From contig OX291544.1 in assembly GCA_946406115.1 (NCBI GenBank), forward strand, positions 29,095,521 to 29,159,520: a DNA stretch of 64,000 nucleotides, written 5' to 3'. Source of the DNA: Apoda limacodes. Taxonomy: Eukaryota > Arthropoda > Insecta > Lepidoptera > Limacodidae. The translations under genes and the position numbers were made by a program. The first letter of the stretch is position 1. The number at the start of each line of letters is the position of its first letter. This document shows positions 1 to 60,502 of this stretch, piece after piece. The notes below the pieces were generated by a model that saw nothing but the letters and a program-made list of their open reading frames with translations, was not told where the DNA came from and did not search any database.

Positions 1-312
1 CGACATAGAATATCTACATTTCCAGAATTAGAAACTTAGTATGAAGAGGTGTACGAAATTACTTTAGTGAAACACAAATCACTTAAGCCCAGACGAGGCC
101 GAATTGCGGCCGTGGCTCATCTCTCGGAAATCTATCTATTTCGGCAGCTTTAGTCCGGGGTGTTGGAAACGTCTCCCGCTTAATTCATGTTATACCTGTG
201 GAATTAAGCGATTGGATGGACCATTAGTTTAGAGGACAAAGTGTTTCTTGAGGTATTAATAACTTTTTGGGTATTTTTACTTACATCACATAATATTAAT
301 TTTCTCTTCCCT

Positions 313-380
313 GCACAGGACAAACATTTATGTGATGAACATTGGTGTTTGTTTTAGGTGTGGGTGCGTTTTATGTATAA
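313..380 (+). repeat. SINE fragment present in both arms
   Basis: The stretch around 'caggacaaacatttatgtga' matches the region just after the tRNA-like head of the SINE at 47150-47425. The same motif lies at 60170-60205 in the right arm, so this insertion predates the duplication. In the right arm the sequence beyond 'gtgatgaac' is replaced by an unrelated 200 bases. Confidence 0.5.
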
Positions 381-1307
381 TATATAAGTATTTAAAAAAA
401 CTAAAGAATAGCAGTCATCACCTTAAACATTGTTGATAGCAAATATTTTTGAAAAATCGTTCGTTTGAACCGATAATCGAACACATGAAATATGAAAAAA
501 GAAACGTCTATTTATAATTTGGATCGAAAGGTTCATTTCTAAGGATCAGTTTCTCTCAAATATTATAAATTAGAGTTTGCCAGCGGATACGCCCGCTCTG
601 AATTCGTATATCGGCGTGGAACTCCTTAATTAAACTAATGAATTACACATAATGTTATACGGGGTTCTTAAAACAATACTAAACTAATGAAGTTTGTTAT
701 AGCTGTAGCAATAGTTCGTTTGACCTCAATTATAGTTATTCCCTATTCCACGACCTAAACTATATGTGTGCCAAGTTTTACCCCTACCCGCCCAGTGATT
801 GAAGCGGGATTAAGTAACACCCATCCAAACTTTCACATTTATAATATTAGTAGGATTCAACTAGCAGCGGTTTATTAGATTTATTAAATTAATATTAAAT
901 AGTTATGATCGTGTTGATTTTAATTTAAGTTTTATTACGAAACAGTGTATTATTTTAGGTAATAGGGAAATACATTGACATTTTACTTCCAAATTATATA
1001 CTATCTTTAGTCAAAGAAATATCATAAAAGATAAAACATACTAAGCTAAAATTCACCTATTTAACTTCTGACTTACTTAACATAAGAACCAAGAGACCAT
1101 AAAAATTTAACGGTGTTAGATCCGATACTCTTAGGCCATCTAATGGTCCCGTTCGTAACTATCCATTTTTGATAAAATAAATTAAGTTGTTCAGAAAAAA
1201 ACGTAAAAACGAAAAAAATGTAATATCAAAAAATTCTTATAATTAAGCTTTGTATGAAGTGAGAACTAAAAAAAATTAATGGCGGCGCTAGATCGCTGCA
1301 AACTTTT

Positions 1308-1460
1308 TTATTGTATGTGTAACAATTTTATTTGGTAACAATTTTATTGTATGTTGCAACAATTTTACTGTATGTGTGAACAAATTAAATACATGTGGTA
1401 TCAATTTTATTGTATATGGTAACAATTTTAATGTATGTGGTAACAATTTTATTATTGACA
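1308..1460. repeat. 21-base minisatellite, left-arm copy
   Basis: About seven imperfect copies of a 21-base unit of the type 'gtaacaattttattgtatgt' plus g run through this stretch. The right arm carries the same array in reverse complement at 58085-58236, also with about seven units. The array therefore existed before the arms were duplicated. Reading frames of 60-75 codons through it are by-products of the 21-base period and are not genes. Confidence 0.85.
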
Positions 1461-1739
1461 TCATATCAGCATTGGAGACAAACCATATCACCCATCACAA
1501 GAGTTTCTTTCATAAAGATCAAACGCTTATCATGCATTTAGAAATATCCATAAAGAAAATTTTAAACTAAAATGCAATACGGTCAGTTACAGATTTGCAT
1601 ATAGAATTTCAAAACAAAATAGAATGGCAGCGAGGCGTAGTCACTCACACACTTAAAGAAATAAAGTAATATGTCTTGTAGAACCTGAGTAATATTAGTT
1701 ACATTTAATATTGTATATAATAATTTCACTAAAAAAGTT

Positions 1740-1828
1740 ATCGTATCCGTAGCCTAGTGGAAAGACGTATCAGATCTTAAAACGTGTACTCAGTGGTTGT
1801 GGATTCGAATCTTACCTTATGCCTTTCT
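1740..1828 (+). repeat. tRNA-derived SINE head
   Basis: The segment contains a perfect RNA polymerase III box A, 'tagcctagtgg', and a box-B-like 'ggattcgaatc' about 50 bases later, in the spacing of a tRNA gene. The T-arm pairs poorly and no clean cloverleaf closes, so this is a SINE head and not a functional tRNA gene. It lies within the left-arm-specific composite insertion (about 1575-6440). Confidence 0.55.
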
Positions 1829-1898
1829 TTTGGTTTTTGTTACATTTTACGACTTATGAATATTTTGTTTCGTTAAACAGCTTAGACCAATTTTCTAA

Positions 1899-2125
1899 TA
1901 GCTATTAAGTTAGATGCGGATACTACGTAGGTAGACATTTAATGTTTCTCGTTCGTTGCCGATTTGTTTCTGGGGGTATGTGCTGACAAGTTTGTTTGGT
2001 GTTTTCATTTAGCTATTCAGTTAGATGCGGGAATTACTTAGGTATCCATTTTTTTTTTGTTGTGGATGAGTTACTGTAGGTGCTTGTGTTGATAAGGGTA
2101 TTTTGTGTTTTTATTAAATTTCTTT
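1899..2125. repeat. Two-unit tandem repeat, about 110 bases per unit
   Basis: 'agctattaagttagatgcgg' at 1899 recurs as 'agctattcagttagatgcgg' at about 2010, and the following sequence stays loosely similar ('acgtaggtag' and 'acttaggtat'; T-rich stretches at the unit ends). The pair sits immediately upstream of the Tc1 transposase remnant and could be a subterminal repeat of that element. Confidence 0.45.
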
Positions 2126-2167
2126 GCTAAAAATAACATGCAGGCCAATATAAATATTTAAGAGAGG

Positions 2168-2762
2168 ATGCGTATTATAGAAATACATAATATGGGTTAC
2201 AATATTACTCAAATTTGCAATGAGACTGGTTTTACCGTAAGTATTTTATTTGATGATAATGTAATATCATAATTTTTTAATACCACACTTTTTTGTAAGT
2301 AATTTTCTAAAAAAAAATTAAAATATAATTTCAGTAGTTTGAAAAATGTTTATTTTAATCTGGCTATTTGGTTTTTAGTGGAGGGGAGTTTATCAACTCG
2401 ACCTCGAAGTGGACGCCCGCGGCACATTGATGCGACTCAAAGAAGATGCATGGTGGAACAATACGAGAACAATGGTTTCATACCGACTGCTGTGTTTGGA
2501 CACATGTTTCATACATCTACACACAGTTCGTCGAACTCTGCATATTGAAGGATTGCATCATAGAAAGCCAGCTAAAAAACCATATTTAACTAATATGAAT
2601 ATATATGACATTCTATATTTACCGTTCTAACCACTTTCAGATTTCCACCGCCTCTGTCAGACACCATAAATATAAACTAAATAGATTGTTGTTTGCAAGG
2701 GAGTATGTAGATTTTGACTGGGAGCACACATTATTCACCGACGAGAAGTTACGGTATTGGGA
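2168..2762 (+). pseudogene. Broken Tc1-like transposase, interrupted by a 70-base segment
   Basis: Three pieces of a Tc1-family DDE transposase can be read. At 2168-2236 'MRIIEIHNMGYNITQICNET' fits the first helix-turn-helix. At about 2375-2590 'EGSLSTRPRSGRPRHID' fits the GRPR linker and is followed by 'IEGLHHRKPAKKPYLT'. At 2670-2760 'RLLFAREYVDFDWEHTLFTD' carries the first catalytic Asp of the DDE triad. The stretch between 2237 and 2334 begins gtaagt and ends tttcag like an intron, but the phases do not join. Between 'KPYLT' and 'HKYKLNRLLF' lies a 70-base block (2600-2669) that is a near copy of 6423-6492. The 3' half of the gene, with the other catalytic residues, is missing and is replaced by a LINE on the opposite strand. 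A different Tc1 3' fragment lies at 27640-27770. Confidence 0.75.
2600..2669 (+). repeat. 70-base block duplicated at 6423-6492
   Basis: The block containing 'ttaccgttctaaccacttt' occurs here and at 6423-6492 in direct orientation with about three mismatches. The downstream copy adjoins ancestral arm sequence (6440 onward pairs with about 57860 and below). The upstream copy sits inside the Tc1 transposase reading frame. It may be a long target-site duplication, a template-switch scar or a small mobile piece. Confidence 0.7.
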
Positions 2763-2774
2763 AATATGGTCAAA

Positions 2775-4893
2775 TTTTCTTAAGTTGAAAATAAATCTTA
2801 TACAAAAATTGAGGAGACGATCAAGTTTATTGAGATGATTTTGGGTCAGATCCAAATAACAAACATCAGCATAATCAATTATGGGAATGATTAGAGTTTG
2901 TACTAGCAAGATTTTGGTTTTTATTGGTAGAAAATGTTTGAATCGATAAAGCGATCGCAAAGCGTTGAACACTTTTCGACTAACTTCTGCGATTTGATCA
3001 TGCCAACTAAAAGTATTGTCTATATATAGACCCAGATCTTTTACGCTAGAGGTAAAGGGTACTATAGTGTTTTCATAGTATATCTGTGACAAAGTACTTA
3101 AGTCAATCCTACTTAGTAACCTTGAGCTACCTACGAAAATTGATAAAAATAGAAAACAAAAGCGGGGAAAGGATTGCTCCTTGAGGAACTCCGGCAGAAA
3201 GATTGCGCCATTCAGAGGAATGTTGATCTATGTGAACAGACTGTTGGCGGCCATGAAGATAGGATGAAAACCAGTTTAAAGCATTAGGACAAATATTAAG
3301 GTTACTTAGAATAGATAGAAGTATATCATAATCAACGGTGTTGAGCGCGTTTGTGAAGTCAACTAGTACTAATACAGTAACCTTAGTGTCTTCCATTGCC
3401 AGTCTAATATCTTCTGTGACCTTAAGAAGAGCTGAGCTAGTGCTACGGCCAGGGCGAAAACCAGATTGAATTGATTCAGAATGTTGTTGTTGTAGATAAA
3501 ACTGGAAAACTGTCGATTCACGCACGCCTCCCAACACTTTTGATAAAAATGGCAAGATAGAAATTGGCCGAAAGTGGCAAGGAGAGGTAGGTTTGGAGAT
3601 TTTAGGCAGGGAAATTGCATAAGCTTTTTGCCAAATGAAAGAAAGAGTTGAATTTTCTAAGCTAACATTTGGTTTTCCAGCTCCAATAAAACGTAGAAAC
3701 TTCCATAAAGAATTGAGCGTGGAATCTGATATATAACTATGTATGTATAGACGTTTAGCTGTACGTATCATCAAGTTACATCGATTTCTTGCCACTTTGT
3801 AATTACTCCATCTTATTTCAGTGCGATCTTTTTTGAACTTACGAAAGGCACGATCTCTTTGGGACATAGCTATGTGAATGTCATTAGTCATCCAAGGTGC
3901 TAAGGGTGTTTTAATTTAACTTTGTGCAATGGAGCATGTTTGTCATAAAGTGCGGTTACAGAATTATTAAATATCGCAACTTTCGCGTCAATATCATCAG
4001 CAACTAACACCGGAGTCCAGTCTATTTCGGCCGCATCTATCATTAATTTTTCTACGTCCATTCGGGAAAAAGCACGAAGATATAAGACCTTTGGACAAGG
4101 CTTTGGAGGCTTAATATTGTAGGATAAGTATAGTAGGTCATGCCGAGAAAATCCAGGAGCTAAAAATTGTCCATATGAAGTAACGTGATTCTCAGAAGAG
4201 ATAAGGATTAAGTCAATCCATGTGTCATCAGTGTCAATGTTATGATGAGTAGGTGTTAGCGGAAGATTCGCAAAATTGACAGAGTCTATTTTTGATAAAA
4301 GATGGCTAGAACGCAGCGATTTACATGTCAGTGTTAAAATCACCCATAATTATGTGATGGCTGTATTCAGAAGTAATGGATTCTAAGACCTGCTCGAAAT
4401 CAGAGAAATAGTCAATTGAAGGCGGACAGTAAACTACTCCAAGGAGGGCTTTAATGCCTTTGACAGTGATTTCAAGAAATATATACTCAGCCGAAGCCGA
4501 GTATGCTGAATTCGAAGATGTAATCTGTCGAAAAGATATCTCACTACGTAAATAAATTGCTACACCTCCTCCACCTTTACCTATGCGGTCATTGCGAATT
4601 GCTACGAATCCAGGAAGAGAGTACATAGTGTTAGGTAGACACGGCTTAAGCCACGTTTCCGATACCAACACGGCATGTACAGTAGTAGTGGAAAAAACTT
4701 CTAAGAATTCAGAGTAATGTTTAGTCAGGCTCTTTGCATTAATATGGCAGACATTTAAACATTTAGGAAATTGCTTAAAGTTGTTCTCAACAAGAGTACC
4801 GAGAGTAGAGCGGTCCTCGTGTGAAGAGTCGAGACAGGAAACAAATGAAACATCAGAATCACAAATAGAGTGGAAGGAATCACTATGTAACAT
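2775..4893 (-). pseudogene. LINE A: decayed Jockey/CR1-like non-LTR retrotransposon ORF2
   Basis: The polyprotein of a target-primed retrotransposon reads right to left in several frames. The apurinic-type endonuclease lies at 4893-4321 ('CHINAKSLTKHYSEF', 'LVSETWLKPCLP', 'IIMGDFNTDM') and continues in a shifted frame to 3900 ('GFSRHDLLYLSY'). The reverse transcriptase lies at 3891-3127 ('FRPISILPFLSKVLG', 'GFRPGRSTSSALL', 'GVPQGAILSPLLFSIF'). The next frame (3092-2775) resumes at 'IVPFTSSVKDLGLYID', so the stretch that should hold the catalytic xADD box has been deleted. There are frameshifts near 4330 and 3895. The 3' end is cut off at the Tc1 remnant. The closest relative in the window is LINE C (45830-48030). 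It is part of the left-arm-specific insertion and is certainly inactive. Confidence 0.88.
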
Positions 4894-6440
4894 ATTAATA
4901 ATTATATAAAATGAATGGTAATATATATATATGTTTATATATGTGATTTATATTATACCTATTAATTTATTTTATATTTAAAAAAATATTAATTTGTCGA
5001 ATGTTTTTCTGCATTACCTGCCAGTCCGCTATTTCCAAAATTAATTTAAAAAAAAATTAGAATACACAAGTTGAAAACAAATAAGAACAACGTAGAATAT
5101 AAACGAACAAATTAAAATTTTACCTTAATTAGTAGTACATAATTTACATTTATGTGCTTTATGGAGAATAATTGTGATGACATCAATAAAAATTATATTT
5201 AGTACCAGTCAGTGAAAATCTATATTATCTATAAAAACGGCAAAAAAAATCACGTTTGTTGTACTAGAGCCCCCCTTAAATTTTTGTTTTATTTTAATTA
5301 AATTATTATTTTTAAAGTAACTATATAACTAAATATTTTGTAAATATTTTAGGCGACTATCTGTTGCCGTTATCAATATCGAGCAAAATCGAGCAAAAAA
5401 ATCACGTTTGTTGAATGGGAGCCCCCTTAAATACTTATTTTATTCTGTTTTTTTTAGTATTTGTTGTTATAGCGGCAACAGAAATATATCTTCTGTGAAA
5501 ATTACAACTGTCTAACTATCACGGTTCATGAGGTACAGCCAGAGCCTTAGTAATAGGGTTCCGCTAATTACCCTTTGGGTATGAAACCCTAAAAATAAAG
5601 TACTATTTTTCTTACAGATATTATTTTACATTTCGATATATTTAAGACATAACAAATTTTTTTTTTACTTTTTTGTTTTTTAAAATATACCAGCGTTACC
5701 GAATGAATAGTGACTTGTATTTTTTTTTTTATTCTTATGGTTAAGTTTCAATTTTCTTTTCATTACGAAAACGAATACTATAACCATAGGAAATATATAT
5801 AGTTTTCTATATATATTTCCTAGAGACATTTATCAAAAACAATATTTATAAAATTTTAATAAAAACCATTTTTATTGTATGTGTAAACACATGCATGTTT
5901 TAATTTTTGCAAACAAAACAAAAACTTCTCATACTAATTGTACTGTACCTTTACAGAGATAATAAGATGTCAAAACATAAAAAAAAGTAGTTCCTAACAA
6001 AAATACTCAATACGGAAGTAGCGAGAAATGAATCTTAGGCTAGCCAAATTAAGTCGCAGCGTCTATGGATAACACCACGGTGCAGACAACATTTAATGCG
6101 AAATAAACAATTCTTATGTAGAATAACACTGCTGTTTACACCTAATTAATTTGTTAGGTTAAGAAACCAAAAGATATAAGAACGGTTTAAATAAACTGGT
6201 TAGTATAAAGAAAACTTAACCTAATTTTGTCGATTTAAGGTTAATATTATTGACAGTTCTGATAATGTTAATGTGTGAGTGCGAGATTCACAGAATGGCT
6301 CCACGCAATTTTAACCTTAACACTATGCATGGACTTTAGCAAATGACAGTACGTATCGTTAATAGCAAAAACTCTAAAATCCTAAACATTGCTTTGGAAT
6401 GTACCTACATAGGCCGTGCAGACGAATATATATGACATTC
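4894..6440. other. AT-rich non-coding stretch inside the left-arm composite insertion
   Basis: No coding signal was seen. At 5230-5600 there is a minus-strand copy of the common repeat ending in 'gggttccg...accctttggg' (compare 17352-17643); it carries two direct sub-repeats around 'aatcacgtttgttg...gcccccttaaa' at about 5250 and 5400. The rest is low-complexity A/T. Ancestral arm sequence resumes at about 6440. Confidence 0.6.
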
Positions 6441-6494
6441 TATATTTACCGTTCTAACCACTTTCAGATTTCAACCGTCTCTTTCAGACACCAT

Positions 6495-8075
6495 TTCCAA
6501 TAGTTAAAAATATGTTGTGATATGTTGAAGTATTAAATAAACAGAGGACATCGAAATATATATCATGTGCGAAATTATTAAGTTATTTTTAGATTATAAG
6601 TGTACAGCAAATTAAGCATTTTCTTCTTACTCGTTGCTTTAAATAAAAACAAGGACAAAAATAACCTACACCAAGTTGTTGAAACCTTCTTTTTAATATG
6701 TTCAAAACAATGCGATAAATAAATTAGGTATTTTTATGACAGTATGATTTTTATTTTAAAAGAAATTTCACAGATATTACTGACTCGTTTGTTGATCCCG
6801 CGGCCGCGTGAAACAAGCAACTCTTGTTGTTAGAAAGAATTTAATAAAATATGTTTTATGAGTGACTTTTATTGGATTTTACCTCCTGCTATTTTTTATT
6901 AACTTGGATTTACAAAATTGTAATTACTGTGGTAAAATTTAACTACTTATACTTTTAAGGGTTACGTACCCGAAGCGTGCCAACTAGATCATTTTACCAA
7001 GACTATGCTGTCTGTCTATTTGTCCGAACTTAATCTCTTAGCTCTAATTTCTCAACAATTTTATTAATATAGATCTATAAAGATATATTTCGTTTCGATT
7101 TTTAATCTCTAGTAGGTTTTTTAGGTGAAAAAAGCGTTTAAAAAGCATTCATATCTTTAGGATTACACATTTGCATAAAATTTAATGACAAAGAGAGATA
7201 TAAAACATGAATAGCCGGTACACCGACGTCGTCGGACTACTTCCTTGCCATTGTTTTGAGCGACTTTACAGTGAACTTAGATAAAGCTCATTAATCTCTT
7301 GCAAGTCGCAAAAGCTCGAGATGCAAAGTTTGGAAAATAAGCTTAAAGTGAATGTAGCAAATAATAAAGCCAAGTAAAGTCAAGAAAACTAAGTTAAGGT
7401 GTAAATTGAGCTTGAGGCAAACTGAGTTTTATTTACTTTGTTGGTTATTATTTAAAATATATGCTTGAGTTTTTATTCTATATTTATTTCTTTTATGATA
7501 TTAAAAATAACAAAAACCATTTTTTTATGATATTTTGGTGTTTATTATAGAAGCGTCATCAGTTTTATTAACAGAATAAAATAACAATAAATATAAAGAT
7601 AGTTGACAATGTCAGTATTTTAAATGGTAGATATCGTTTGAAATGGTAGTTTTTATTTAAAATGGTAGATATGATTTTAAACATAAAAAGTATGAATACC
7701 TATAATCTGCTTGCCATCTAAGGATTTCTTAAAGAAATATCATTTTACAACTAAAGTATTTTAGTAAATATGAAAAAGGACGTGAATGTGTCAATGTATA
7801 AGTAACAGTGTATACGTGTGAAAATCTATAAGTATTATTTTAGAAAAACAATAAAAATGCATACTTCTTAAAGTATGGCAAGATATTATTAATGAAATTA
7901 TTAATAGGTACCATCGGTGAAATGTCGACGTTTATAACGTCTCTGACCACCCCTTTAGGTTGGTATTGAGAGTAAAAGCAGATATCTACTTAATCCTAAC
8001 TAATATACCTACAAAAATGCAAAATGTCTGTTCGTTATTCATAAGTCGTCCGATAGACCTAACCCTTGTACAAAT
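6495..8075. other. Shared arm sequence without recognisable genes
   Basis: This stretch pairs with about 55830-57840 in the right arm. It contains a degenerate 'gggttacgtaccc' repeat near 6958 that is also present in the right arm near 57370, and short left-specific reiterations of 'aaatggtagatat' at 7620-7675. No reading frame is conserved between the arms. Confidence 0.6.
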
Positions 8076-8340
8076 TATAAAAATATAATAAATAAATATT
8101 TTTGGACATCACAGCGCCATCTGACCCCAAACTTAAAGTGTTTACTATGGATACCAGACAACGGATACAATTACATAAATAAAGGTCTTTTTTTTAAAAT
8201 ATAAACATATTATTCATAGAAAGCACTTATAGATTCGAGATAAACACAAATGATTATCACATGATATTTAAAAAATCATATCAGCACATAGAATAGTTCT
8301 ACTACTCTTGAGATTAAGTGTTTTTATGTAAAAGTTTTCC
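8075..8340 (-). repeat. tRNA-derived SINE body fragment
   Basis: 'tttttggacatcacagcgcc' and 'taccagacaacggatacaa' match the 3' body of the SINE at 47150-47425. In the right arm (about 55775-55830) only the extreme end 'acacagcgcc' survives, so the insertion predates the duplication and the right copy was later deleted internally. Confidence 0.65.
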
Positions 8341-8551
8341 CGTACGCGTGGGTAAAACCGCGAGGCACTATTCCTTTACGTCGCAACGGAGTAACAGGGA
8401 TTCCTAGGTTTTGGCACACGGATAGCTGTAGGCGATATGAAACCTTTTTATCCCGATCGAGAGATCCCTTAGGACTATTCCATGGGTTCCATGGTTCACA
8501 TTGCAACAACGATTAGCATCACAGCATGAGTGGCTTGATTTTTAAGGGGTT

Positions 8552-9330
8552 AAATTCAAATTCAATATAATTTATTCAGTTTAGGCTACAATAATTGAGC
8601 ACTTATGAATGTCGCTACGCCATCGGTTCGTAAGTCTATAGGGCGGGAGACCTTGTACTGAGAAGAACCGGCAAGAAACTCAGCAAGGGCTTTTCTTTTC
8701 TCCCTTTCTCTTACAGCGTCCAATTAAAATATTAAAAAATGCCCTCCCTATCATAAAAGGACACTTTCCATTACAAACATAAAAAATATAAAGCACAAGC
8801 ACAACATAAAAAAGTATCTAACATAAAAAAAAGACAGTTTATGTTTTCCTCACTGATAAATAATCAATTTCTTACAGTATTAATAAACGAAACAAAAAAG
8901 TAAGACTAAATTCTAAGAATACAAAGAAGTTTGCAAGAGCAGACCAGCCTCCACCGGTGGCACCCGTTCACGAGTATGACACATGAATCAGCCATTGCTT
9001 CGCTCAACCATGTTTTAGGGAACATAACGACCCGACACACACGCCACCACCGCAGAGACACTTTGAGGGAGCATGACACACTCAAGCAACTCCAATAAAA
9101 CTTCGATTGTACTAGTTACAATGTGTGTAGTAAAGGAACAAAATATAAGAGGAGAAGATTGGAAGGTTCGTAATGCTTTACTACCGAGAAGAACCGGCAA
9201 TAAACTCAGCAGTTAATCTTTTATACATCATATAAAAATACAATATAGCCTTACACTAGGTAATAACATAATATACAATGTTTTAATTTAAAAAAATATT
9301 TCAAATGCCCAAATACAAATCAATTAAATT
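8552..9330 (-). mobile_element. 3' untranslated region of LINE B, possibly with a nested LINE tail
   Basis: The lepidopteran LINE 3'-end motif 'gaagaaccggcaa' followed by 'aaactcagca' occurs twice, at 8670-8700 and 9185-9215. This suggests either a duplicated 3' region or a second 5'-truncated copy. The left boundary of the left-arm insertion lies just before it: the right arm runs uninterrupted through 55440-55600. Confidence 0.55.
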
Positions 9331-12135
9331 CTAATTTTTCCAAGCATTTTTATCATTTATGTATTCATCAACTTTGTAATAGCTTTTTTTCAATAAACTA
9401 TCTTTGACTAATATTTTAAATTTATTTGAGGATAAATTAACCACATGTTCTGGAATTTTATTGTATAAAAATATACTTGCGAAAGAGCTATGTACCTTCT
9501 GAAGACGACATTTTGGAACTACCAATTTATCCTTATTCCTTGTATTAACACTGTCGAGGTCACTATTTTTAGCAAATAAGTGACAAATTTTTGCGTACAT
9601 ACATTAAACAAGCGAAGATATATTGGCAAGGGACAGTTTAAATATCAGTTTCCCTAAATAGTTCGCTAAGAGAAATTCGAGGTCCTAATTTATAGATTGA
9701 CCGTAGGTTCTGCTCTCTTTTGCAAAATAAAGACTGTATCAATTTCAGCTGCCTTACTCCAAAGCAAAATGCCATAAGACATGACGTAATGGAAATAGCT
9801 AAAGTAGACCAAGCGTGCAGTGTCAACATCTGTTAGCTGCCTAACTTTTCTAACTGCATAGGCAGCTGATCTAAGTTTCCCTGCAAGAACTGAAATGTGA
9901 GGGTTCCAATGCAGCCTATTGTCTAATGTAATACCTAGAAACACTGCTGAGTGTAATAGTTCTATTTCTTCGCCGTTTAGGGATAATTTTGTACTTATGT
10001 TTCTGACATTTGGCATCACAAATTTTACACACTTAGTCTTTTTCGCATTTAGAAGTAAATTATTTGCCGTAAACCATTGAAGAACCTGAGAAAGCGCACT
10101 TCTTACGTCGTCAAAATTAGTTTTATTTATGTCAACTTTAAATAAAAGAGATGTGTCATCAGCAAATAGTACAATCTTGCACAGCTTCTCCACAAAGAAA
10201 GGCAAGTCATTTATGTAAATTAAAAATATAAAAGGACCTAAAATAGAACCTTGAGGAACTCCTAATTTTACTTCTGAGCCATTGGATTTTACTTAATTGA
10301 TTTGAACCTTCTGCATTCTACTACTCAAATTTGAGCGGATAAGCTCAAGAGCCAAATCTGCAATATCATCATGACTCAGTTTCCGTATAAGAGTTTCATG
10401 TTGCACGCAGTTGAATGCCTTTGATAGATCACAGAAGATACCAATAGCATTTTGTGACTGTTCCCAAGCAGCAAATATATGCTTTATAAGGGCAACACCT
10501 GCGTCAGTTGTGGAACGCCCTTTTGTAAAACAAAACTGTTGAGGATGAAGTAATCCATTTAAGTTAAAATGTTTAAGCATCTGATTGAACATAAGTTTTT
10601 CAAAAATTTTGCTTAAGGCAGGCAGTATAGAGATAGGTCTAAAATTATTAGGATCATCTTTACTTCCACTTTTAAAAAGTGGTATTATTTTACTATATTT
10701 TATTAAGTCTGGGAATATCCCTTCGTCAACACACTTATTAAATATTATGGCTAAGATTGGTGCTATAATATCAATAATTCCGCAAAGGACTTTAACTGAT
10801 ATACCCCATAGGTCACAAGTTTTTTTCTGAGTTAGTAATTTAAATGTCTTTATGATGTCTTCAGAGGTAACATACTCAAATTAAAATATAGTCTTGAATT
10901 TATTTACATTACATTTTAAAAGTAACTCTGATTCTAATGGAGTGGAATTTAATGAATTAGTAGTAATTGTAGGCATTTCAGTAAAATATTTCTTAAAAGA
11001 GTCAGCGACATCAAGATCTGAATCAATTATTTTTGAATTTACAGTAAGTGAATAATGATTGTCACGCGGTTTAATTTTTCCATTATTACATTTCATGTGG
11101 CCTTTATTCTATTATCAGAATTTTTAATTTTATTACTTAAATGTATTGCTTTTGCAACCTTGCATACTTTTTTAAATATTTTTGAATACATTTTGACATA
11201 GTTAGTGAATGTGGGACTGTGGTTATATTGTTTCATTTCATACAACTCATACAACCTAGTTCGACTTCGGTGTATTCATTTTATCCTTTGGCCTAAAAGT
11301 TTTTATTTTAAACACTTGCTCGAACTCATTACTTAAGAAATCAAAAAAAATTTTATAAAGATTATTAGCATTATCATGCATGAAATGTAAAAATGGAATT
11401 TTCTTTTCAATATTTGCTTTAAAATTGTTTAATCGAGCAATGGTCACAGGTCTACAACTTACTAGTTGAGATTTTTTTTTATAGTTGTGTAGAATTTTTA
11501 TTATTTGACCACAGTGATCGAATGGCAAATTGTTAATAATAGATTTATCTTTTACTTCAACGTTATAGAAAATATTATCTAAACATGTAGCTGAAGTCGA
11601 TGTCATTCTAGTTGGTTCCAGAAACAAATAATTTAAGTCAAAACTTGTAAATAAGTTAATAAATCTATCTCTTGTTTGGGAACTCTCTAAAAGATCAATA
11701 TTAAAGTCACCACAAACAATAACTGACTTTTTAGAATGACAATTTTTTTTTAGAACTTGTTCCATTACAGGCTCAAAAGAATTATAATTTGCAGAAGGGG
11801 GGCGGCACACACAAAGTATAATATAATTCTTAAGTTCTATACAAGACAATTCTATAATGGGTTCAAGTGAGAGGCTAACTAACTATATCCCCTCGGTCTT
11901 TACACTGTATATTATTATTAACAATTATTAATGAACCCCCTCGAATAGCATTTTTTCGAATAAAGGCACTGGACAAATAATGATTGGGGAAACTAAATAT
12001 TAATTCATGTTTACTTAGCCAATGCTCAGTTACACACAACATATGTATATTATGACTTTTTAAAAATAATTCTATTTCCAATTCCTTGCCAGAAATGCCT
12101 TGTATATTTTGATGAACAATGTTAAAAAACAGGCA
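9331..12135 (-). pseudogene. LINE B ORF2: Jockey-group endonuclease and reverse transcriptase, decayed
   Basis: Reading right to left, the endonuclease starts at about 12135 ('VHQNIQGISGKEL'), goes through 'HMLCVTEHWLSKHEL' and continues at 11849-11256 with 'VIVCGDFNIDLLES' and the 'LDNIFYN' region. Reverse transcriptase pieces follow. At 10592-10293 'QQFCFTKGRSTTDAG' is followed by motif A 'GIFCDLSKAFNCVQHETL', which retains its Asp. At 10205-9690 the catalytic box is 'IVLFADDTSLLFKVD', followed by the thumb 'FLGITLDNRLHWNPHIS'. The C-terminal part at 9600-9331 has 'FLYNKIPEHVVNL'. Frame breaks and stops lie near 11870, 11100-11250, 10880, 10250 and 9650, so it is dead although the two catalytic Asp of FADD remain. 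A related copy lies at 34530-35780. The insertion is absent from the right arm. Confidence 0.9.
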
Positions 12136-12154
12136 TTGTCTGTTGTCAAAGAAC

Positions 12155-43298: not shown

Positions 43299-43339
<41 letters not shown>
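43299..43339. repeat. (GT)n microsatellite
   Basis: About 40 bases of pure tg repeat, followed by 'tacgtatgtatgtatg'. Confidence 0.95.
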
Positions 43340-43342
<3 letters not shown>

Positions 43343-45258: not shown

Positions 45259-45259
45259 T

Positions 45260-47113: not shown

Positions 47114-47149
47114 CATAGATATTAAATTTTTTAAATATTAAAATTTTTA

Positions 47150-48089: not shown

Positions 48090-48366
48090 GGCCATGTTCT
48101 TCCCCGGGCTCAAACTATATCTATGCCAAATTTGCCGGCGGTTCTACCTGCCCTAAATTCGGTAATCGGTGTAGGGTTTCAACGGAAAATTCAAAATTAT
48201 AGAAAAAACCGACTTACACTTGACGTTTTAGTCTATGACCTTTACCTTGACTCAAACTATCTCCATGCCAAATTTCATCCTAATCGGTGCAGTGGTTTGA
48301 GCGTGAACAAGACGGATAAACAGACGGACAGACAGAGTTACTTTCGAATTTATAATATTAGTATGG
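48090..48366 (+). repeat. Common lepidopteran interspersed repeat (second long copy)
   Basis: The sequence matches 26024-26340: 'ggtaatcggtgtagggtttc', 'ctccatgccaaatttcatcc' and the terminal 'tttataatattagtatgga'. It starts with a tandem-like duplication of the 'catgcc' segment. Confidence 0.7.
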
Positions 48367-48513
48367 ATATTTATCTATCAGTATATTATAAATATTTCCT
48401 GTAACGACCAAAAAAGTTTATTTCTTTAAAGTATTTTTTTACATGCGGTTTTTGGAAAATATATTTTTAAAAATATATTTTTACTCAAACATGCCCGAAC
48501 ATGTTCGAAAATA

Positions 48514-49292: not shown

Positions 49293-49417
49293 TAGGACAC
49301 TGAAAGTACGTAGTTGAAAGATTGTAAAAAAAATATTAAAATTACTTCAAGAACACCAGGAATATTTTAGATTAAGACTAAGATTTCGAGTCCTTTAATC
49401 TTTTCTATGGACTATGG

Positions 49418-50272: not shown

Positions 50273-50777
50273 AAAAAAAAAAAAAAAGTGTAAATAAAAA
50301 ATTGACCTCACTTAATGTGCACACGACGGAGTTATCATCACGCGTTCCGTCAATATAAATTAGGTTACCGTGTTTCATTTCCTTTTCTCTTCCTTTTGAC
50401 ACATTTTATGTCACACAAGTTGAGTCAGAAGTCGGAAAATTCAATTTAAATATTGTTCATTTTCTTTTTATATAAAAATACAAAATGGTAACTTTTTATT
50501 TATACGATCCACCGAACTAAGGTTTCATGTATACAACTATCTGTGCCCGGCGGCTTCGCTCGTGAAATAATTTTAAAAATATCTTATATGTGCCATTGTC
50601 CATTTGTATTCTAAATAATATACATAATCACAATATTGCTGTATTAGGAACCATAAATAACAGCTAATTCTTCAAGTTTATAACGCTGATGATATTAGAC
50701 TCTGATACGCAACATATGTTTTTGATCCGAAAACTTTGCATTTCTACTCAAATATCTATCTATAATTCTACTACTGT

Positions 50778-52795
50778 AGTGGGCGATTAGAAATGCTTGA
50801 AATTTGCACCTACTTAAAAAAAAATACCAATAACACCTTATGAAATAACACGTGCAACATTCCAGTGAGACACTTCTTACAAAGTTATGAAAACTAACAA
50901 ACGAGTGCTTAAAGTCATTTCATCTGCTAAGACACAGTATCTAAACAAAAGCTTTTATAGAAATGCTAAAACTCAAACAGTAATAAATATTCTTAAAATG
51001 ACAAAATTTAGAATTGCCTCATATGTTTCGCAGAAATTGACTTAAGTATTACCAAATGTCTAAAAGTTTTAACTGCTTCATCCAGTGTGCCACCAGTTAC
51101 AAAAAAAATAGGACAGACGTCCTATTGTCTTATGACCCACCACAAACAAGTGCGCTATTTTTGATCTATCCCTCTTGGAATTAAGTTATAGTTTAGTACA
51201 GGAGTAAAACGCTTCCTGGCTATTTTTACTGCCACACTTAACCTTTGTATCGCAGAATTAAAAACATAATTTAGCACAAATAATATAAATGGATATTATT
51301 ATTACCTTGGCATCAAATGGTAGTGAAGTAGCTATGGAATACGAGAGACCTTTAATTTCGGGACAGCGACCAAAAATCGTGGCTTTCAATCTTAAGAGTT
51401 GATGGGACACACCCGTGCCCTGAAATAAATTTAGATTTTAAGGAAATTGAATTTGATTTAAAATAAACGAAGTTGTTTCTATTCTTATAATTTATTAAAA
51501 GTTCTTATTAAATTTGTAATTAAGTTTGGTGTTCTACAAAAGCCGATAAACGAGCATAAGTATTTTACATCTTACTTAACCATTTTTTGTTATTCCAGCA
51601 ATGTTACAAATATATGTGTAACTGTAATAAACTTACTCGTCAGTTTTCACTGGTGAATAATTGTTTGTGTTACCTTAAATATGTTTAAAATAGTAATCAA
51701 GTAATTTCCTTGGGCTCATGAGATTCCAGCCGATCGCTGAAACCTTTAATTTCTGTGATATGGTTGTATTGTACTGTGTGCTAATTTATTTATATGTAAT
51801 TAGTTTGAACCGGCCAAAAGGAGGTTGTTTGAAAGTTGGATATTCTCCTCCTTTTTAGGGTTTTGGGCGGTTAGTTAAGAAAATAGACAAAGTTTCGATG
51901 GTAAATTTTTTAGTTGCATCTACCTATTAAACTTAAATATTCAGTTCTCGTAAGAAACGTTGTCAGGCTTATATATCAAAGACTTACAAAAGGGGTAAAA
52001 TATCATAGCAAGTAAATTGTTTAATAGACCTTTTTATACTATTATTTCGTTACAACAAAGAGCTTCTATTAACAAATTATATGAAATAAACGACCACGCA
52101 GAATACATAGCTATCTCTTCTTTAACGATATAATATTGACTGAAAGTGTTCCTACTATAAGAAATAGAGCAGGACTGAGAGTTTGACAATTGATTTTTCT
52201 TCTTATAATAAATAAAAGGTACCTTAAAAAAATGATCATTAAAAACTTAATTGGCCAATCAAGGCGGCTGGACGTTACCAGCTTGGGCCTAGCACAATGA
52301 ATCAAATAAAGAGAGAATCAATCTATCTCGCCTCAGAGTCGTATTCGGATACGATACTGCCGAAATCTCTGGTTTTAGTATAATACCTATTGTCCTATTT
52401 AAACTGATCACCGAATACACTTATCTAAGTTGATAAATCATTAAAACGATTACTATTTATTTTCATTGTAAAAGTTACAGTAAATATAACGCAACTTGTA
52501 ACAATAGGATCACTATTTAAGTTGTTTCAACAACAATTAACGATTTTTGCCAAAATACCTATGAAAACTGACTTTGATACGAAAAATACCTAGGACCAAA
52601 TAACCACTTCCTTCTAAAATAACGATCACAAAAATTATTAAAGTACACAGGGCTTGAACTCCGAGTACAAGCGACGAACTTCGACGAGATTTTCATCTAT
52701 TCAAATTAATTTAACACTCGCAATATTAGGTAAACAATTTAGTTAGACATCCGACTAGAGATTAATACCTTCTAGATACGTCTGGGGTTCATCAC
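50778..52795. mobile_element. 2.0 kb right-arm-specific segment of unknown type
   Basis: The left arm passes directly from the counterpart of 50770 to that of 52800 (15895-15900, 'actctagtagtataat'), so about 2 kb is extra here. The right ends read 'ctgtagtgggcg' and 'catcacactactag'. No transposase, reverse transcriptase or long frame is present; the content is AT-rich with sporadic GC motifs (51380-51420). Either a non-autonomous insertion or sequence lost from the left arm. Confidence 0.5.
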
Positions 52796-53329
52796 ACTAC
52801 TAGAGTTGGTTTTGTTTGAATCCGCCGCTAAAAGCGATTTAGGGATAGTCCACACGCGGGCCCAGTGTAGTTTGTGAACATATTTACATACGTCTTTAGT
52901 TTACCTAACTTATGCAGGTTTCCTCAGGATATTTTCTTCACCGAAAAGCCTTCGTAGAGTAACGGAAACATTGTGGTTGTTCAACAATGTAAATTGGCTC
53001 TAAAGATAAGTCCATCGCTGCCAACATTGCTTTTAATACAGTATATCTTGACTGAGGTGGTTTTAGGTATCTATGTCCAAAATGTAATAAATAACTAGCT
53101 TGAAATAAATAAAAATAACTATACTTTCATAAACGACGATATATCATAAACTAGTAAAGATAGCTTCATGGAATAAAAAGTATTTTGAAAAGAGTTTTAT
53201 TTTACTATTAAATAAGTGATTAGTTACGCATCAATGTTCCTTAGACAGTATACAGTTATCATGAGTTTTTTAGGAAAGTGACTCGATATTTTTGCGCGCA
53301 TATATATAAAATATACCTATTTAAAGTAC

Positions 53330-54360
53330 TGAGGAACCAATTTATCACGTACGTCTCCGAGTATATCACTAGGTCCAGTCGTGGCTCGGAAGATATCAAA
53401 ATCCTGAAGATTGGGGCTGGAAAAGCATGCAAACATTTGGATGCCAATACAAACTTTCTAGCCTCCAGCACCCCCTGATCTTATGAAATTAATTTTCTGC
53501 AGATGCAAAGGAAACTGTGGAAGCATGTGTGGCTGCAGAAAAGCAGGCCTGAAATGCTCTACAGTATACCTCCATTGTTCTGGCGAAACATGTAGCAGCA
53601 TTATGGAAATGTCAAAGTTAATGGAAGAAAATGAATTCGAAGATGAACTTCCAACTATGACTCCAATTTAAACTCCTGTCATTCCTCAAACTTTTACATT
53701 TGACGTTGATTAAGAGATTCTGAGCCACAGCCTGGACCATCGAAGAAAAGTAGATTAGAGTTGCTAGCTAATCAGTGATTGAAAATATTATGATGTCGAG
53801 GATTATCTTATAAGTAAGATGTCCGTGGAGTCCCAGTAGGCCTACAGGGAATACAACGTAAAAAAACGCGCCTACAGACTCTCCCTCATAGGTGGCGGGG
53901 AAAACAGTTAGGAATGAAGAAGTAGAGTTGTACGAATTTAACAAAAAAAAATTAAGAATATATTTACAATAAAAAACAGAAATCAAAAATAAGTTAAACA
54001 TTTCGTTTTGACCGGATTCTCATGAGCATTGACGAACCCGGTCAACTTTGGAGCGCTGTAACAGCGTTTTAAATGAATAAAATTAAAAAAAATAACAGAG
54101 AAAAATTTTCCTCAAAAGATCATCAACAAGATTGGTCTGAGGTAATTTATTACAAATAAATTAAAAAAAAAAAAGTTATACAGCAAAAAATATTTTTTTG
54201 CTTATAGCTTCTTTAATTTTTAATTTACGGCAAAAATTTATATAAACATATTTGTAGGAAAAACAATTTGCTAGAAATTAGTCTTCACGAATTTTTTATA
54301 AGACGCATAGTTTCCGAGATATCGCGAAAAAATTGCGTCCTCTAACAAATGCAAAGCTCA
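53330..54360 (+). mobile_element. 1.0 kb right-arm insertion carrying a cysteine-rich ORF
   Basis: Relative to the left arm (about 15340-15400) the right arm has about 1 kb extra between 'tatttaaagtactgag' and 'ggactatatccaatataa'. Upstream of the cysteine-rich frame, another frame reads 'ILKIGAGKACKHLDANTNFL', which looks like the preceding part of the same protein. The 3' third (53700-54360) is AT-rich and non-coding. The class of element is not clear. Confidence 0.6.
53483..53671 (+). CDS. Cysteine-rich CXC-like tail, probably the end of a mobile-element protein
   Basis: The 62-residue frame begins 'MKLIFCRCKGNCGSMCGCRK' and continues 'AGLKCSTVYLHCSGETC', ending in an acidic stretch. The spacing C-x-C-x3-C-x3-C-x-C-x6-C...C-x4-C resembles tesmin/TSO1-type CXC cysteine clusters, which bind DNA. 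I recall similar tails at the C-termini of multi-copy insect proteins of presumed transposon origin but cannot name the family. The upstream frame (53278-53478) ends three codons before and is probably the same gene after a frameshift. It is likely a fragment. Confidence 0.45.
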   Translation: MKLIFCRCKGNCGSMCGCRKAGLKCSTVYLHCSGETCSSIMEMSKLMEENEFEDELPTMTPI

Positions 54361-56796
54361 TGTTACATTTCAATGGACTATATCCAATATAAAAGAAACA
54401 AAAACTTCTGGAATTCCTTTCTTATTATTTTGTTACTCTAACAGTACAGATTTCATTCCTTAATCCATCGATAACTTCAAGATAAACATAAATTTTTATC
54501 TAAGATGTGAAGCAAAACGATCAGTTATAGTCAGTCCATGACGTAAAGTTTGTACACACAACAAACTGTGTCTGTTGGGACGATGCTGTCGAGCTCATGT
54601 CAGGGAGAGGCTCAAGTGATGGATCGTTTCATCTTTTCACGTAAATCATTAAAGATACGAGTTGTTAAGAACTATTGATGAGAATCGTCGTGTACGATGT
54701 ACAATGTCGTGAGAACTAAAAATTAATTGCTTTACAATAGTGCCTACATTACATTTTTCTTTGACTAGGAATTCTTCTAGAGTAATAGCTCTACATAGCA
54801 AGGTCGAAGAAATCATTTGTATCATTGGAATGATACAAACCTGGCAAATAAAAAAAAAAAGTTTTGATATAGGTAATTTTTCCAGAAAAACTATTCTTCT
54901 CTGATCCCCTTTTTAAACTGTTTTGATTTATTTCCTCTTAGCTACTTTTCATGACTTCGCCTGCGTGGATCTCGTTTTAATGTGATGTGAGTTAGCATAG
55001 GCTTAACAAAACCAATAACTCGGCTTCTTTACGATGACATATAAAAGTAGAGTGCAACAAACTTTTCTGACCAGTTGATCGAAAACTACAGTTGCCATAC
55101 TGAAATGGTGTAAACTTACAACGACACTAGCGACCAAATACCTAAAGTCAGAAGGTAAAAAAAGTTTGTTGCACTAAAAAAACTGTTCTGCGTGATGAGT
55201 CTGTTACTGACAAAAGTCCAGACAAATAAAAAATTGCATTGCATAAGTTCGACTAATTTTATTAAAGTTAGATATAGTATAGATTTGAAAACGATATATT
55301 GTTTCATATACTAACAATGCTCATCAAAGACAGTGGACACATGACAGTAAGTTTTAGAACAGTTTTACTTTATAAGAAACTACCTTTTGCCCGCGGCTAC
55401 GCTTGAAACTCTTTAAATAAATAAATGAAGGAAATATGTTTATATTTTTTTGCACACAAGAACAAAACAAAACACAAAAGTGTGTACAAAAGGCGATCTT
55501 ATAACTAGAAAGCGACCTCTTCCAAACAAACTAGCCACCCCTTGTTTTACTGAAATCAAAAAAAAATTACATTTAGCTAACCCCTTAAAAATCAAGCCAC
55601 CAATGTTGTGGTGGAAATCGTTGTTGCAATGTGAACCATGGACTCCATGGAATAGTCCTGAGAGATCTCTCGATCTGGATAAAAAGGTTTCATATCTCCT
55701 TCGTCCTTCCAGCTATCTGTGTTAAAAACCCAGGACGCCCTGTTACTCCGTTACGACGTTAAGGAATACTGCCTCGCGGCGCTGTGTTATGTCCGAAAAT
55801 ATTTATTTAATATATTTTTATTATTTGTACAAGAGTCAGGTCTATTGGATGACTTATAAATAACCAACAGACATTCTGCATTTTTGTAGATATATTAGTG
55901 AGGATTAAGAAGATACCTGTTTTTACTCTCAATACCAACCTGAAGGGGTGGTCAGAGATGTTACAAAGGTCGACGAATCACCGATGGTACCTATTAATAA
56001 TTTCATTAATAATATATCACCATACCTTTCATTCATGCATTTTCATTGTTTTTCTAAAATAATACTTTAAGATACACCTTCACATGTGTTCACTGTTACT
56101 TATACATTGACACATTAACGCCCTTTTTCATATTTACTAAAATACCTTACTCGTAAAATGATATTTCTTGTAACAATCCTGGGATGGCAAGCAGATTTTA
56201 GGTAGTCATACTTTTTTTGTTTAAAGTGATATGTACTGTTTAAAATGATATCTACCACTGAAAATACTGACATTGTCAACTATCTTTATATTTATTGTTA
56301 TTTTATTCTGTAAATAAAACTGATGACGCTTCTATAATAAACACCAAAACATCATAAAAAAATTCTTGTTTGTTATTTTTATTATCATAAAATAAATGAA
56401 TAAAGACTAAAAACTCAGGCACATATTTTAAATAATAATCAACAAAGTAAATAAAACTTAGTTTGCCTCAAGCTCAATTTACACCTTAACTTAGTTTTCT
56501 TGACTTTACCTGGCTTTATTATTTGCTAAATGCACTTTAAACTTATTTTGCAAACTTTGCGTCTCGAGCTTTTGCGACTTGCAAGAGATTAATGAGCTTT
56601 ATTTAAGTCCACTGTAAAGTCCCTCAAAACAATAGCAAGGAAGTAGTTCAACGACGGCGGTGTACCGGCTATTCATGTTTTATATCTCTCTTTTTCATTA
56701 AATTTTATGAAAATGTGTAATTCTAAAGATATGAATGCTTTTCAAACGCTTTTGTCACCTTAAAAAACCTACTAGAGATAATAAAACGAAACCAGC
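54361..56796. other. Shared arm sequence without recognisable genes
   Basis: This stretch pairs with the left arm in pieces: 54430-54690 with 15060-15300, 54800-55480 with 12950-14050, and 55570-56790 with 7080-8550. No frame is conserved. The site at about 54795 is the empty target of the left-arm element 14052-14963. Confidence 0.6.
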
Positions 56797-57235
56797 CTAT
56801 AAATTATGATAAAAGACTAAGATTAATGAAAAGGTTAAATAAAATAATATCTGATGATAACAGTTATATTTTTATTACAATTTGAGTATGTTTAGCATAA
56901 GCAGTCTTTACCTACTGCTGCACCGTTTTCAGCATTTTAGTCATTATCGCACTAGTACCTTTTACTTTACAGTTTTTATTAAATTTTTAGGAAGAAAAGA
57001 GCCTATGAACTAAGTTTCTTTAAGTGTGCTGAGAACAGTCGTATGACACTCGTGGGCTCTCCTCTCTTGTGTCATATCGTACTATTATTAAAAAAATATT
57101 ATGTATTGTAATATACTATTATTTAACGGCCGAACAAACACAAAACACCTTAAGGAAACATGGAGATTGACTTTTAATATTGTTTTTTTTATATTTATTG
57201 AAAAATACGTCACATTAACACCAAAGTGCATGAAA
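56797..57235. mobile_element. 0.44 kb right-arm insertion of unknown type
   Basis: The left arm at 7085-7100 reads 'gatatatttcgtttcgattt' without a break. The right arm has about 440 extra bases between 'ataaaacgaaacc' and 'aaatatatctttatt'. It contains no frame or clear terminal repeat. Confidence 0.55.
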
Positions 57236-58084
57236 TATATCTTTATTACTATATTTTTAGAGACATTAATAAAATAGTTGAAAAATTAGAGCTCTTTACA
57301 GTTCAAACAGACAAACATACAGAAAGACAGACAGCATAGGTTTGGTATCATAATCTAGTTGGCACCCTTCGGGTTCGTAACCCTTAAAAGTATAAGTAGT
57401 TGAATTCTACCGCAGTAATTAAAATTTTGTAAATCCAAGTTAATGTCAAAACTCGGCGCCTAATAAAAAATAACAGGCGGTAAAATTCAATAAAAGTCAC
57501 TCATAAAACATATTTTATTAAATTCTTTCTAAAAACAAGAGTTGGGCCATTTCGCGCGGCCGTGGGATCAAGAAACGAGTCAGTAATATCTGTGAAATTT
57601 CTTTCAACATGAAAATCATACTGTGATAAAAATACCTAATTTATTCATCGCATTTTGCAACTTGGTGTAGGCTATTTATTTTATGTCCTTGTTTTTATTT
57701 AAGGCAACGAGTAAGAAGAAAATGATTAATTTTCTGTACACGTATAATCTAAAACTAACTTAATAATTTCGCACATGATACATATACCTAAACATATCAC
57801 AACTTATTTTTTATCATTGAAAATGGTGTCTGAAATGTAGAGTGTCAAAGCAAAGACAAAAATTCACGAGCCAAACTTGCATTCGACAGTTTTTATTATC
57901 AACAACAATGCTTATGATATTTTCGTTTGTCCGTTGGTCCATCTCAGTCTTTCACAGTGGAAAAACTTTGTATTTGAGATTGAAAATTTTTTTGATTGAT
58001 CTTTATGATCGTTTGATATTTATGAGAGATACTCTTGTGACGAATGACATGGTTTGTCTCCAATGTTATCTGACGTCACTAATA

Positions 58085-58236
58085 AAAATTGTTACCACGT
58101 ACGTTAAAATTATTACCACATAAAATAAAAATGTTACCACGTACATTACAATTGTTACCACATTCAACAAAATTGTTACCACATACAATAAAATTGTGAC
58201 CACATACAATACAATTGTTACCACATACATTAAAAT
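58085..58236. repeat. 21-base minisatellite, right-arm copy
   Basis: Seven imperfect units of the type 'gttaccacatacaataaaat' plus t form the reverse complement of the array at 1308-1460. The two arrays have diverged in sequence but not clearly in copy number. Confidence 0.85.
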
Positions 58237-58366
58237 AGGCCAAATTTGGGAAAAAAAAGTTTGTGAGGGAGGGAGGGTTTGCTAGGGAGGGAACTAGCGC
58301 CGCCATTATTTTTTTTAGTTTTCACTTCATACAAAGCTTAATTATAAGTATTTTTGAATATTACAC

Positions 58367-58648
58367 ACTGCGTTTTCTGATTCCAAACCAAAAAAAGCTT
58401 GTTCTATAGATACCAGACAAGGGATACAAATTCCTAAACTGGTTAAAAGAAAAGGCGGTCATTGGAAGAAAAACTTGATAACAGAAAATTTTAAAACAGC
58501 CTGTATTTTATGATTATGGTAGAAAGGGTCACTAAAGGATCAATCTCTTCTTAGTTACCTGGTATGAGAATAAATGCAGATTATTAATTTATTATAGTAT
58601 AAAACGGTACTCTTGTAGAAAACGGTGCTCTTGCTCCTGCCGTTTAGT
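58367..58648 (-). mobile_element. SINE fragment, right-arm insertion
   Basis: 'ataccagacaagggatacaa' matches the SINE body of 47150-47425. The left arm at 1195-1225 is uninterrupted. The remaining 200 bases, with a repeated 'aaaacggt(a/g)ctcttg', were not assigned. Confidence 0.5.
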
Positions 58649-58852
58649 AGATTTTTTTCTGAAAAACTTAATTTATTTTATCAAAGATGGATAGTTACGA
58701 ATGGGACCATTAGATAGCCTACATCGGATCTAACACCGTTAAATTTTTTAAGGGGTCCTGTTTCTTATGTTGAGTAAGTCATTAGTTAAAAAAGTGAATT
58801 TTAGCTTAGTACCTATGTTTTATCTTTTATGATCTTTCTTTGATTACAGATA

Positions 58853-59395
58853 GTATCACGTCGGGGCAAAGGTTGCTGCTTTACAAGTCGCAAGTCCGGC
58901 TCCATATGGAGTACTGCTGCCATCTCTGGGCGGGTGCACCCGGATACCAACTTGGCCCTTTTGACCCGGTTCAACGACGGGCTGTGAGAATTGTCGACGA
59001 TTCTAAACTCACTTGCGGTATCGAGCCCTTAAGTCTGAGGAGAGACTTTGCCTCCCTGTGTGTTCTATCGCTTGTACAATGGGTTGTGTTTTGAGGAATT
59101 GTTCGAAATGATGCCCACGGCTACTTTCTACCATCGCACCGCTCGCCATCGGCTGGGAACTCATTCTCACACTTTAGAATCGAAATAGTCGCGGACAGTG
59201 CGGTTTCAAAGAAGCTTTCTCCCGCGAACGCTTGGGTTGTGGAATGAGCGCTCAGCCAAGGTTTTCTCCAAGGACTACAGTATAGGGGTTCTTCAAGAAA
59301 GAAGTTATTAGATTTATGGAGGGTCGGCAATGCGCAAGTGATACAGTACAGCTTTCCATCAGGCGGACCGTAGGCTTGTATGCCACGTTAGTATA
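58853..59395 (+). pseudogene. Jockey LINE (family J), 5'-truncated, right-arm insertion
   Basis: It reads 'TSGQRLLLYKSQVRLHMEYC', 'GAPGYQLGPFDPVQRRAVRI' and 'LTCGIEPLSLRRDFASLCVL', then decays with frameshifts to the 3' end 'ccatcaggcggaccgta'. 'agtat' flanks both ends. The left arm has the empty site near 1008-1015. It retains a segment deleted in the 49418-50272 copy, so the two are independent. Confidence 0.85.
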
Positions 59396-59965
59396 TCAAT
59401 AATAAAAGTATATAATTTGGGAGTTAAATGCCTAATTTATTTCCCAATTACCAAAAATAATACACTATTTTATTATAAAACATAAATTAAAATCAACACT
59501 ATCAAAACTATTTCATATTAATTTAATAAATCTTATAAACCGTTGCCAGATGAATTCTACCAATATTATAAATGTAAAAGTTTGGATGGGTGTTACTTAA
59601 TCCCGCTTCAATCACTGGGCGGATCGGGGTTAAACTTGGCACACATATAGGTCAGGTCCTGAAAAGGGAGTAACTATAACCGAGGTAAGACGAACCATAG
59701 CTACAGCTATACAAACTTCATAAGTTTAATTAAGGAGTTCCACGCCGATAAACGAATTTAGGGCGGGCGTATTCGCTGGCGAACTCTAGTTTATAATATT
59801 AGAGAGAAAATGATCCTTTCGATCGAAATTATAAATACATGTTTCTTTTTTCATATTTCATGAGTTTGATTATCGGTTTAAAGAAACAATTTTTCAAAAA
59901 TATTTGCTATCATCAATATTCAAGGTGATGAATATTGATAACTTTTCTTTAGTTTTTTTAAATAC

Positions 59966-60168
59966 TGTTACGAGCTAGGGTAACTAAAATGCCGTTTGGT
60001 GATGAAGATTATTTACTGCACTTTACTTCACACAAAATTACAGAATCCTAATTGTAAACCAACATTCAGTAATCCGTTTAAACCTCGCAGTAGTCGTATT
60101 CAGGTTTAATCGCTTTCCGAAGTAATTTCGAACGCAGTTTAAAACCAAAACTGCGGCGTATTGCGGGG
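59966..60168. other. 200-base right-arm replacement within the old SINE
   Basis: Between 'aaaaaaactaaag' (pairs with 395) and 'gtgatgaac' (pairs with 345) the arms carry different sequence: about 50 bases on the left, about 200 on the right. The right side has 'gttacgagctagggtaacta' near its start. No class can be given. Confidence 0.45.
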
Positions 60169-60502
60169 GTTCATCACATAAATGTTTGTCCTGTGCAAAG
60201 GAAATCAATGTTATGTAATGTAAGTAAAAATACCCAAAAAGTTATTATTACCTTAAGAAACACCTTGTCCTCTAAACTAATGGCCCTTCCAATCGCTTAA
60301 TTCCACAGGTATTACATGAATTAAGCGGGAAACGTTTCCACCACCCCGGACTAAAGCTGCCGACATGGATAGATTTCCAAGAGATGAGCCACGGCCGTAA
60401 TTCGGCCTCGTCTGGGCTTAAGTGATTTGTGTTCCACTAAAGTAATTTCGTACACCTCTTCATACTAAGTTTCTATTTCTGGAAGTGTAGAGGTTTTATG
60501 TC

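Follow-up and report, generated by a model that had tools for sequence, protein, structure and literature searches.

The stretch of Apoda limacodes DNA analyzed here, 64,000 nucleotides of contig C4 (C4:29095521-29159520) and termed the window, contains two long arms that are related as reverse complements. The arms very probably belong to a set of at least three copies of a low-copy segment lying beside fatty-acid elongase (ELO) genes, within a cluster of about 2 Mb on C4 formed by local duplications and subsequent decay. C4 is 35,624,660 bases long, in an assembly of 800,300,627 bases and 31 contigs. The copies are denoted A, B, and C. Positions count from the first letter of the window as 1, with negative values to its left and values above 64,000 to its right. 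The parts of A and B seen in the window are as follows.

1..26022, plus strand: copy A (left arm), unit blocks split by insertions, running leftward, to about -26.9 kb where matched by B and to about -59.5 kb where matched by C.
37267..61383, minus strand: copy B (right arm) within the window, with more blocks to about 81.2 kb; elongase exons not detected.
7092..8118, plus strand: longest shared block in A, with its B counterpart at 56792-55778 (88%).
27368..30582, plus strand: part of the spacer belonging to A, with three inverted matches to C (C4:28952010-28954712).

The third copy, C, lies about 143.5 to 92 kb to the left of the window and is oriented like B. It is collinear with A in inverted orientation, along a chain of 40 blocks of which the first four resemble a long interspersed nuclear element (LINE), and collinear with B in direct orientation. 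Along C4, the order and orientation of the copies is C >, < A, B >. Genome-wide probing covered two stretches of the unit, for which the best 40 of 102 and the best 40 of 2930 candidates, respectively, were scored.

6482-8118: probe 1, with long matches only on C4, in A, B, C (28968331-28969627), and a fragment, D, at 34.487 Mb.
17643..19529, plus strand: probe 2, with long matches only in A, B, and C.

On other contigs, the matches to probe 1 are at most 309 bp long and those to probe 2 all fall inside one dispersed insert of about 140 bp, while fragment D spans 371 bp of C. Among these best candidates, the unit behaves as an intrachromosomal segmental duplication, a low-copy segment repeated on one chromosome. 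A preliminary description of the window had presented the arms as a lone palindrome, which is contradicted by the presence of C nearby on C4 and by the finding that A and B are not the closest pair.

The three copies are nearly equally diverged, and the differences among them are small. Gap-filtered distances over 4717 columns are 10.6% for A-B, 9.4% for A-C, and 10.7% for B-C, and the A/C versus B/C difference has p = 0.0008. Unfiltered three-way distances (A-B 14.1%, A-C 11.3%, B-C 11.4%) were dropped, being inflated by poor alignment near gaps, and the unfiltered heterogeneity value (p = 3e-11) was likewise set aside in favor of the gap-filtered count. At a mutation rate of around 3e-9 per generation for Lepidoptera, a divergence of 10-11% corresponds to roughly 20 million generations, a figure that serves as a guide only.

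Copies C and A carry elongase exons. Copy C has two, at about 28.9917 and 28.9988 Mb of C4, which match PF01151 with E = 6.9e-13 and 1.3e-35, above the cut-off. Copy A has both in mirror orientation relative to C and outside the window, the second with 95.7% amino acid identity over 163 residues, and in both copies the exons are collinear with the flank. ELO (GNS1/SUR4) elongases typically have an HxxHH motif, and exon 2 of C and A contains HVYHH. The second exon also matches the solved structure of ELOVL7 (6y7f, E = 2.9e-26) and elongases of Lepidoptera and other insects (best 120 of 1553 proteins). Between C and A, the nonsynonymous and synonymous divergences (dN and dS) are 0.016 and 0.129 for exon 1 (6 differences in 159 bases) and 0.008 and 0.066 for exon 2 (6 differences in 309 bases). 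The estimates are rough owing to the few differences; the exons are constrained, with dN/dS about 0.12. The palindrome had been described as gene-free, and no host gene is recognized among 30 window frames searched against Pfam: the 13 frames with a match all hit domains of transposon type (RVT_1, endonuclease, RNase H, DUF4780, Helitron_like_N, HTH_48). Searches of the window with Rfam at gathering thresholds and with ARAGORN found nothing. Outside the window, however, C and A run into the ELO exons.

These exons are part of a cluster. Of 77 ELO exon matches genome-wide, 55 fall at C4:28.99-30.94 Mb on both strands, with 10 elsewhere on C4 and 12 on C1, C2, C8, and C22. Since introns are read through in this search, many matches contain stop codons and are no measure of gene intactness. 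The cluster, about 2 Mb around the window, holds at least 18 central exons on both strands. The exons compared were 18 central ones from the cluster (16 fetched, plus those of C and A), along with two from elsewhere on C4. All 20 were matched by tblastn, and the tree was built from the 18 of them that had at least 70 aa. The exons of C and A group with that of a gene at 29.2554 Mb, denoted E (support 98/97), and C groups with A (93/84); 3 of the 15 inner branches are well supported. Between C and E, exon 2 has a dN of 0.021 and a dS of 0.177. That the copies include or flank one gene family is thus seen directly for C and A; B alone lacks this link.

Within the window, self-alignment pairs A (2-26022) with B (60502-37267) in collinear reverse-complement blocks; the best, 1035 bp long at 88% (E = 0.0), far exceeds what chance would give. 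The inverted collinear similarity behind the proposed palindrome of about 60 kb filling the window is real, but homology accounts for only about 7 kb of the 26 + 23 kb, in about 20 blocks. The rest mostly has no counterpart in the other arm, and separate insertions have swelled both. Block order is collinear apart from a small inverted segment (16710-17206 versus 39838-40772). The earlier divergence estimate of 6-7% fits the best blocks only: overall mismatch is 10.5% over 20 blocks and 7162 aligned columns (336 transitions, 415 transversions; Kimura two-parameter distance 0.113), or 10.2% in 19 trimmed blocks (703/6923 columns). Individual blocks range from 6.9 to 14.7% mismatch, and their divergences are somewhat uneven (chi-square p = 0.002).

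The limits of the arms likewise differ from those first proposed. The left arm had been ended at position 2, which is the edge of the window and cuts the arm; beyond it the match to B extends to -147, -2451, -4475, and then about -26925. With 60 kb added per side, self-alignment again shows the inverted pair, now from about -26925 (A) to about 81192 (B), or about 108 kb in total. The outer blocks are low-copy, and most are present in C too. Past 81.2 kb, apparent matches of B to the other two copies (for example at 91.7-92.6 kb, 94.8 kb, 107 kb, and 116-121.7 kb) were judged by eye to be dispersed repeats and are uncounted; if some are real, B is longer. The proposed 11-kb spacer partly belongs to A, since stretches of 27368-30582 match C (27368-28671 at 80.7%, 29947-30251 at 71.9%, and 30259-30582 at 88.3%), and A therefore extends to about 30.6 kb. 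The apparent inner boundary of the palindrome is the start of B. The inner end of B differs from that of A and C, and the outer ends are outside the window.

The arms also differ in their insertions, and the repeats that bear on their history are listed here.

19530..25210, minus strand: LINE private to A, 5.68 kb with a 12-bp target duplication, absent from B and C.
8119..8357, plus strand: 239-bp insertion in A and C and partly in fragment D, missing in B.
17353..17642, plus strand: insertion of about 290 bp, sequence of which is common to A and C, missing in B.
58366..58651, plus strand: 286-bp insertion of B, lacking in A, with what appears to be its counterpart in C.
40773..50522, strand unassigned: stretch of about 9.75 kb between B unit blocks, without counterpart in A.
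576..857, plus strand: older dispersed repeat in corresponding positions of the two arms (B about 59790-59520; start and B coordinates by eye).
1306..1453, plus strand: 21-bp minisatellite of 7.3 copies (B 58085-58236, 7.2 copies).

The LINE is likely a young insertion. It has two long open frames, with reverse transcriptase, endonuclease, and RNase H in addition to DUF4780; the closest named relatives of its protein are lepidopteran, and B has a single empty site where it sits in A. Together with other clean presence/absence insertions, it bears out the earlier statement that each arm has its own transposon load. The older dispersed repeat has relatives at 26224-26338 and 48226-48396. Its shared place in both arms means that the unit is a genomic segment that already held the repeat.

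Any exchange between the copies would be old. Which of A, B, and C agree at a site is clustered along the unit beyond any of 1000 shuffles, which suggests past exchange, although locally uneven rates could contribute. The longest identical A-B run, of 75 columns, does not stand out from the shuffled mean of 66 (p = 0.20), and this identical-run test gives no sign of recent homogenization of A and B. The arms of ampliconic palindromes on sex chromosomes are nearly identical via gene conversion; here, mismatch is 10.2% and the longest run is unexceptional. The view that the arms aged apart without gene conversion agrees with the private insertions and the lack of recent homogenization, but has to allow for the hint of earlier exchange.

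The most likely course of events would begin with local duplication of a segment together with its elongase gene, on more than one occasion and in either orientation, through an ordinary error of repair or replication, for example template switching. Thereafter the copies would have decayed independently, with flanks eroding and exons staying constrained, and with some old exchange between them. B would be a partial copy whose gene was lost or never present. The arms would have no function as a palindrome, and selection would have kept the elongase exons. Overall, the structure looks like ordinary gene-cluster growth rather than a special sex-chromosome structure.

Several points weigh against this reading. 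No ELO exon is detectable in copy B, whose convincing homology ends near 81.2 kb, which leaves A and C as the only copies linked directly to a gene. The elongase genes are known here from two exons each, which does not imply intact whole genes, and in A the match to the first exon includes stop codons beyond a core of 53 residues. Shared insertions conflict on the order of duplication, two being common to A and C and absent from B, and one apparently common to B and C and absent from A. Fragment D holds part of the first A/C insertion, and B therefore probably lost that 239-bp insertion rather than never having it. Arm ends were inspected by eye for shared termini and target duplications; transposons cover the breakpoints and thereby hide the mechanism of duplication. 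Finally, the genome-wide evidence comes from the two probed stretches and their best-scoring candidates.

Two extensions of the favored reading deserve mention. The first, a tentative addition to it rather than an alternative, is that B and E derive from a single earlier copy that an inversion divided, with B the distal flank and E the gene. Their contents are complementary, in that E retains the gene together with its near flank (A -52.6 to -44.4 kb) and B keeps only the far flank. Matching break positions are not evident, with E read to 29.2805 Mb and about 10 kb of C found in neither. The second, somewhat more doubtful still, is that the elongase cluster grows via repeated inverted duplication, each copy facing the last and later exchange mixing the copies. 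If true, the window would record the alternating-orientation expansion of a cluster of lipid genes, perhaps one connected with cuticle or pheromone chemistry.

Readings that dispense with local duplication of a gene-flanking segment fare much worse. Two independent insertions of one large non-coding mobile element, in opposite orientations, would account for a unit that occurs in several copies and whose frames have no match to Pfam up to E = 0.1 (0 of 10; 10 of 19 frames of at least 70 aa). This is very improbable, because the genome-wide dispersal expected of such an element is not seen among the best candidates of the two probes: long copies occur only on C4, within about 200 kb, plus the one 371-bp fragment. 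The older repeat, which occupies corresponding positions in the two arms, and the collinearity of the unit with gene exons in C and A argue against it as well.

A lone inverted duplication, made by one fold-back event in gene-free heterochromatin and perhaps on the W chromosome, is slightly less probable again. It would explain inverted and collinear arms and a window whose recognizable frames are all transposon proteins, but not the existence of C, the closer relation of A to C, or the continuation of the unit into elongase exons. A W location of C4 is unsupported. Against it, ELO exons occur on C4 at 5.8, 12.2-12.5, and 29-31 Mb, and among the contigs seen C4 sits in an apparent falling-size series from C1 to C27, with C28 (>52.5 Mb) out of order; this numbering hints weakly that C4 is an autosome. 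An assembly artefact, in which diverged haplotypes or repeats were joined head to head, is very unlikely, given that there are three copies, that they differ by about 10% and carry private insertions, that the exons have diverged at synonymous sites, and that the contig is chromosome-scale; joined haplotypes in particular would be unlikely on the sequence.

Other repeats occur in the window and its flanks. Positions from about 1578 to 2595 belong to a dispersed repeat family of about 1 kb, with 39 other copies at 85-91% on many contigs (best 40 of 1695 candidates). A 21-bp tandem repeat at 45116-45258 has 6.8 copies, is 100% identical, and is open on both strands, and a Helitron helicase-like N-terminal domain (PF14214) lies at 62491-63162, at the right window end. 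Upstream, an inverted pair of about 530 bp (-65836 to -65306 and -60968 to -61503, 95.9%) lies near the midpoint between C and A, and frames at about -13 to -8.5 kb resemble BEL/Pao retrotransposon pieces by eye. Downstream are a 2.9-kb tandem duplication (81600-84472 and 84459-87308, 95.5%) and an inverted repeat of 1188 bp (103837-105024 and 113704-112517, 99.4%, about 7.5 kb apart) that is much younger than the arms.

The favored reading, of duplicated flanks in an elongase cluster, replaces the striking but misleading claim of a lone, gene-free, possibly W-linked palindrome with a testable one. Near-equally diverged flanks, private insertions, and constrained exons would allow the expansion and decay of a lepidopteran gene cluster to be traced. 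Among the papers listed from one open library, no lepidopteran W palindrome comparable to the C4 arms stood out, nor did a lepidopteran elongase cluster built by inverted duplication. Clustered ELO/ELOVL genes are indicated in other Lepidoptera among the matches listed, in that Tuta absoluta (O0L34_g16686/16687), Parnassius apollo, and Scirpophaga incertulas have several elongases whose locus numbers are adjacent or whose contigs share one length; the comparison covers the genes and not the intergenic DNA.

Palindromes from inverted duplication are of an already known kind. The large inverted repeats of the human Y chromosome resemble the C4 arms in form, but are reported to exceed 99.9% identity through gene conversion (PMC3723533), whereas the arms here are about 90% identical and decayed. 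A further likeness is to the springtail Folsomia candida, another hexapod with palindromes formed by inverted duplication. These are gene-block palindromes with amplified genes inside and a wide range of synonymous divergence (Ks), which its authors hold is not explained by concerted evolution (PMC5490193). Unlike those palindromes, which are defined by gene blocks, the visible arms on C4 are transposon-filled flanking DNA, with a third copy nearby.

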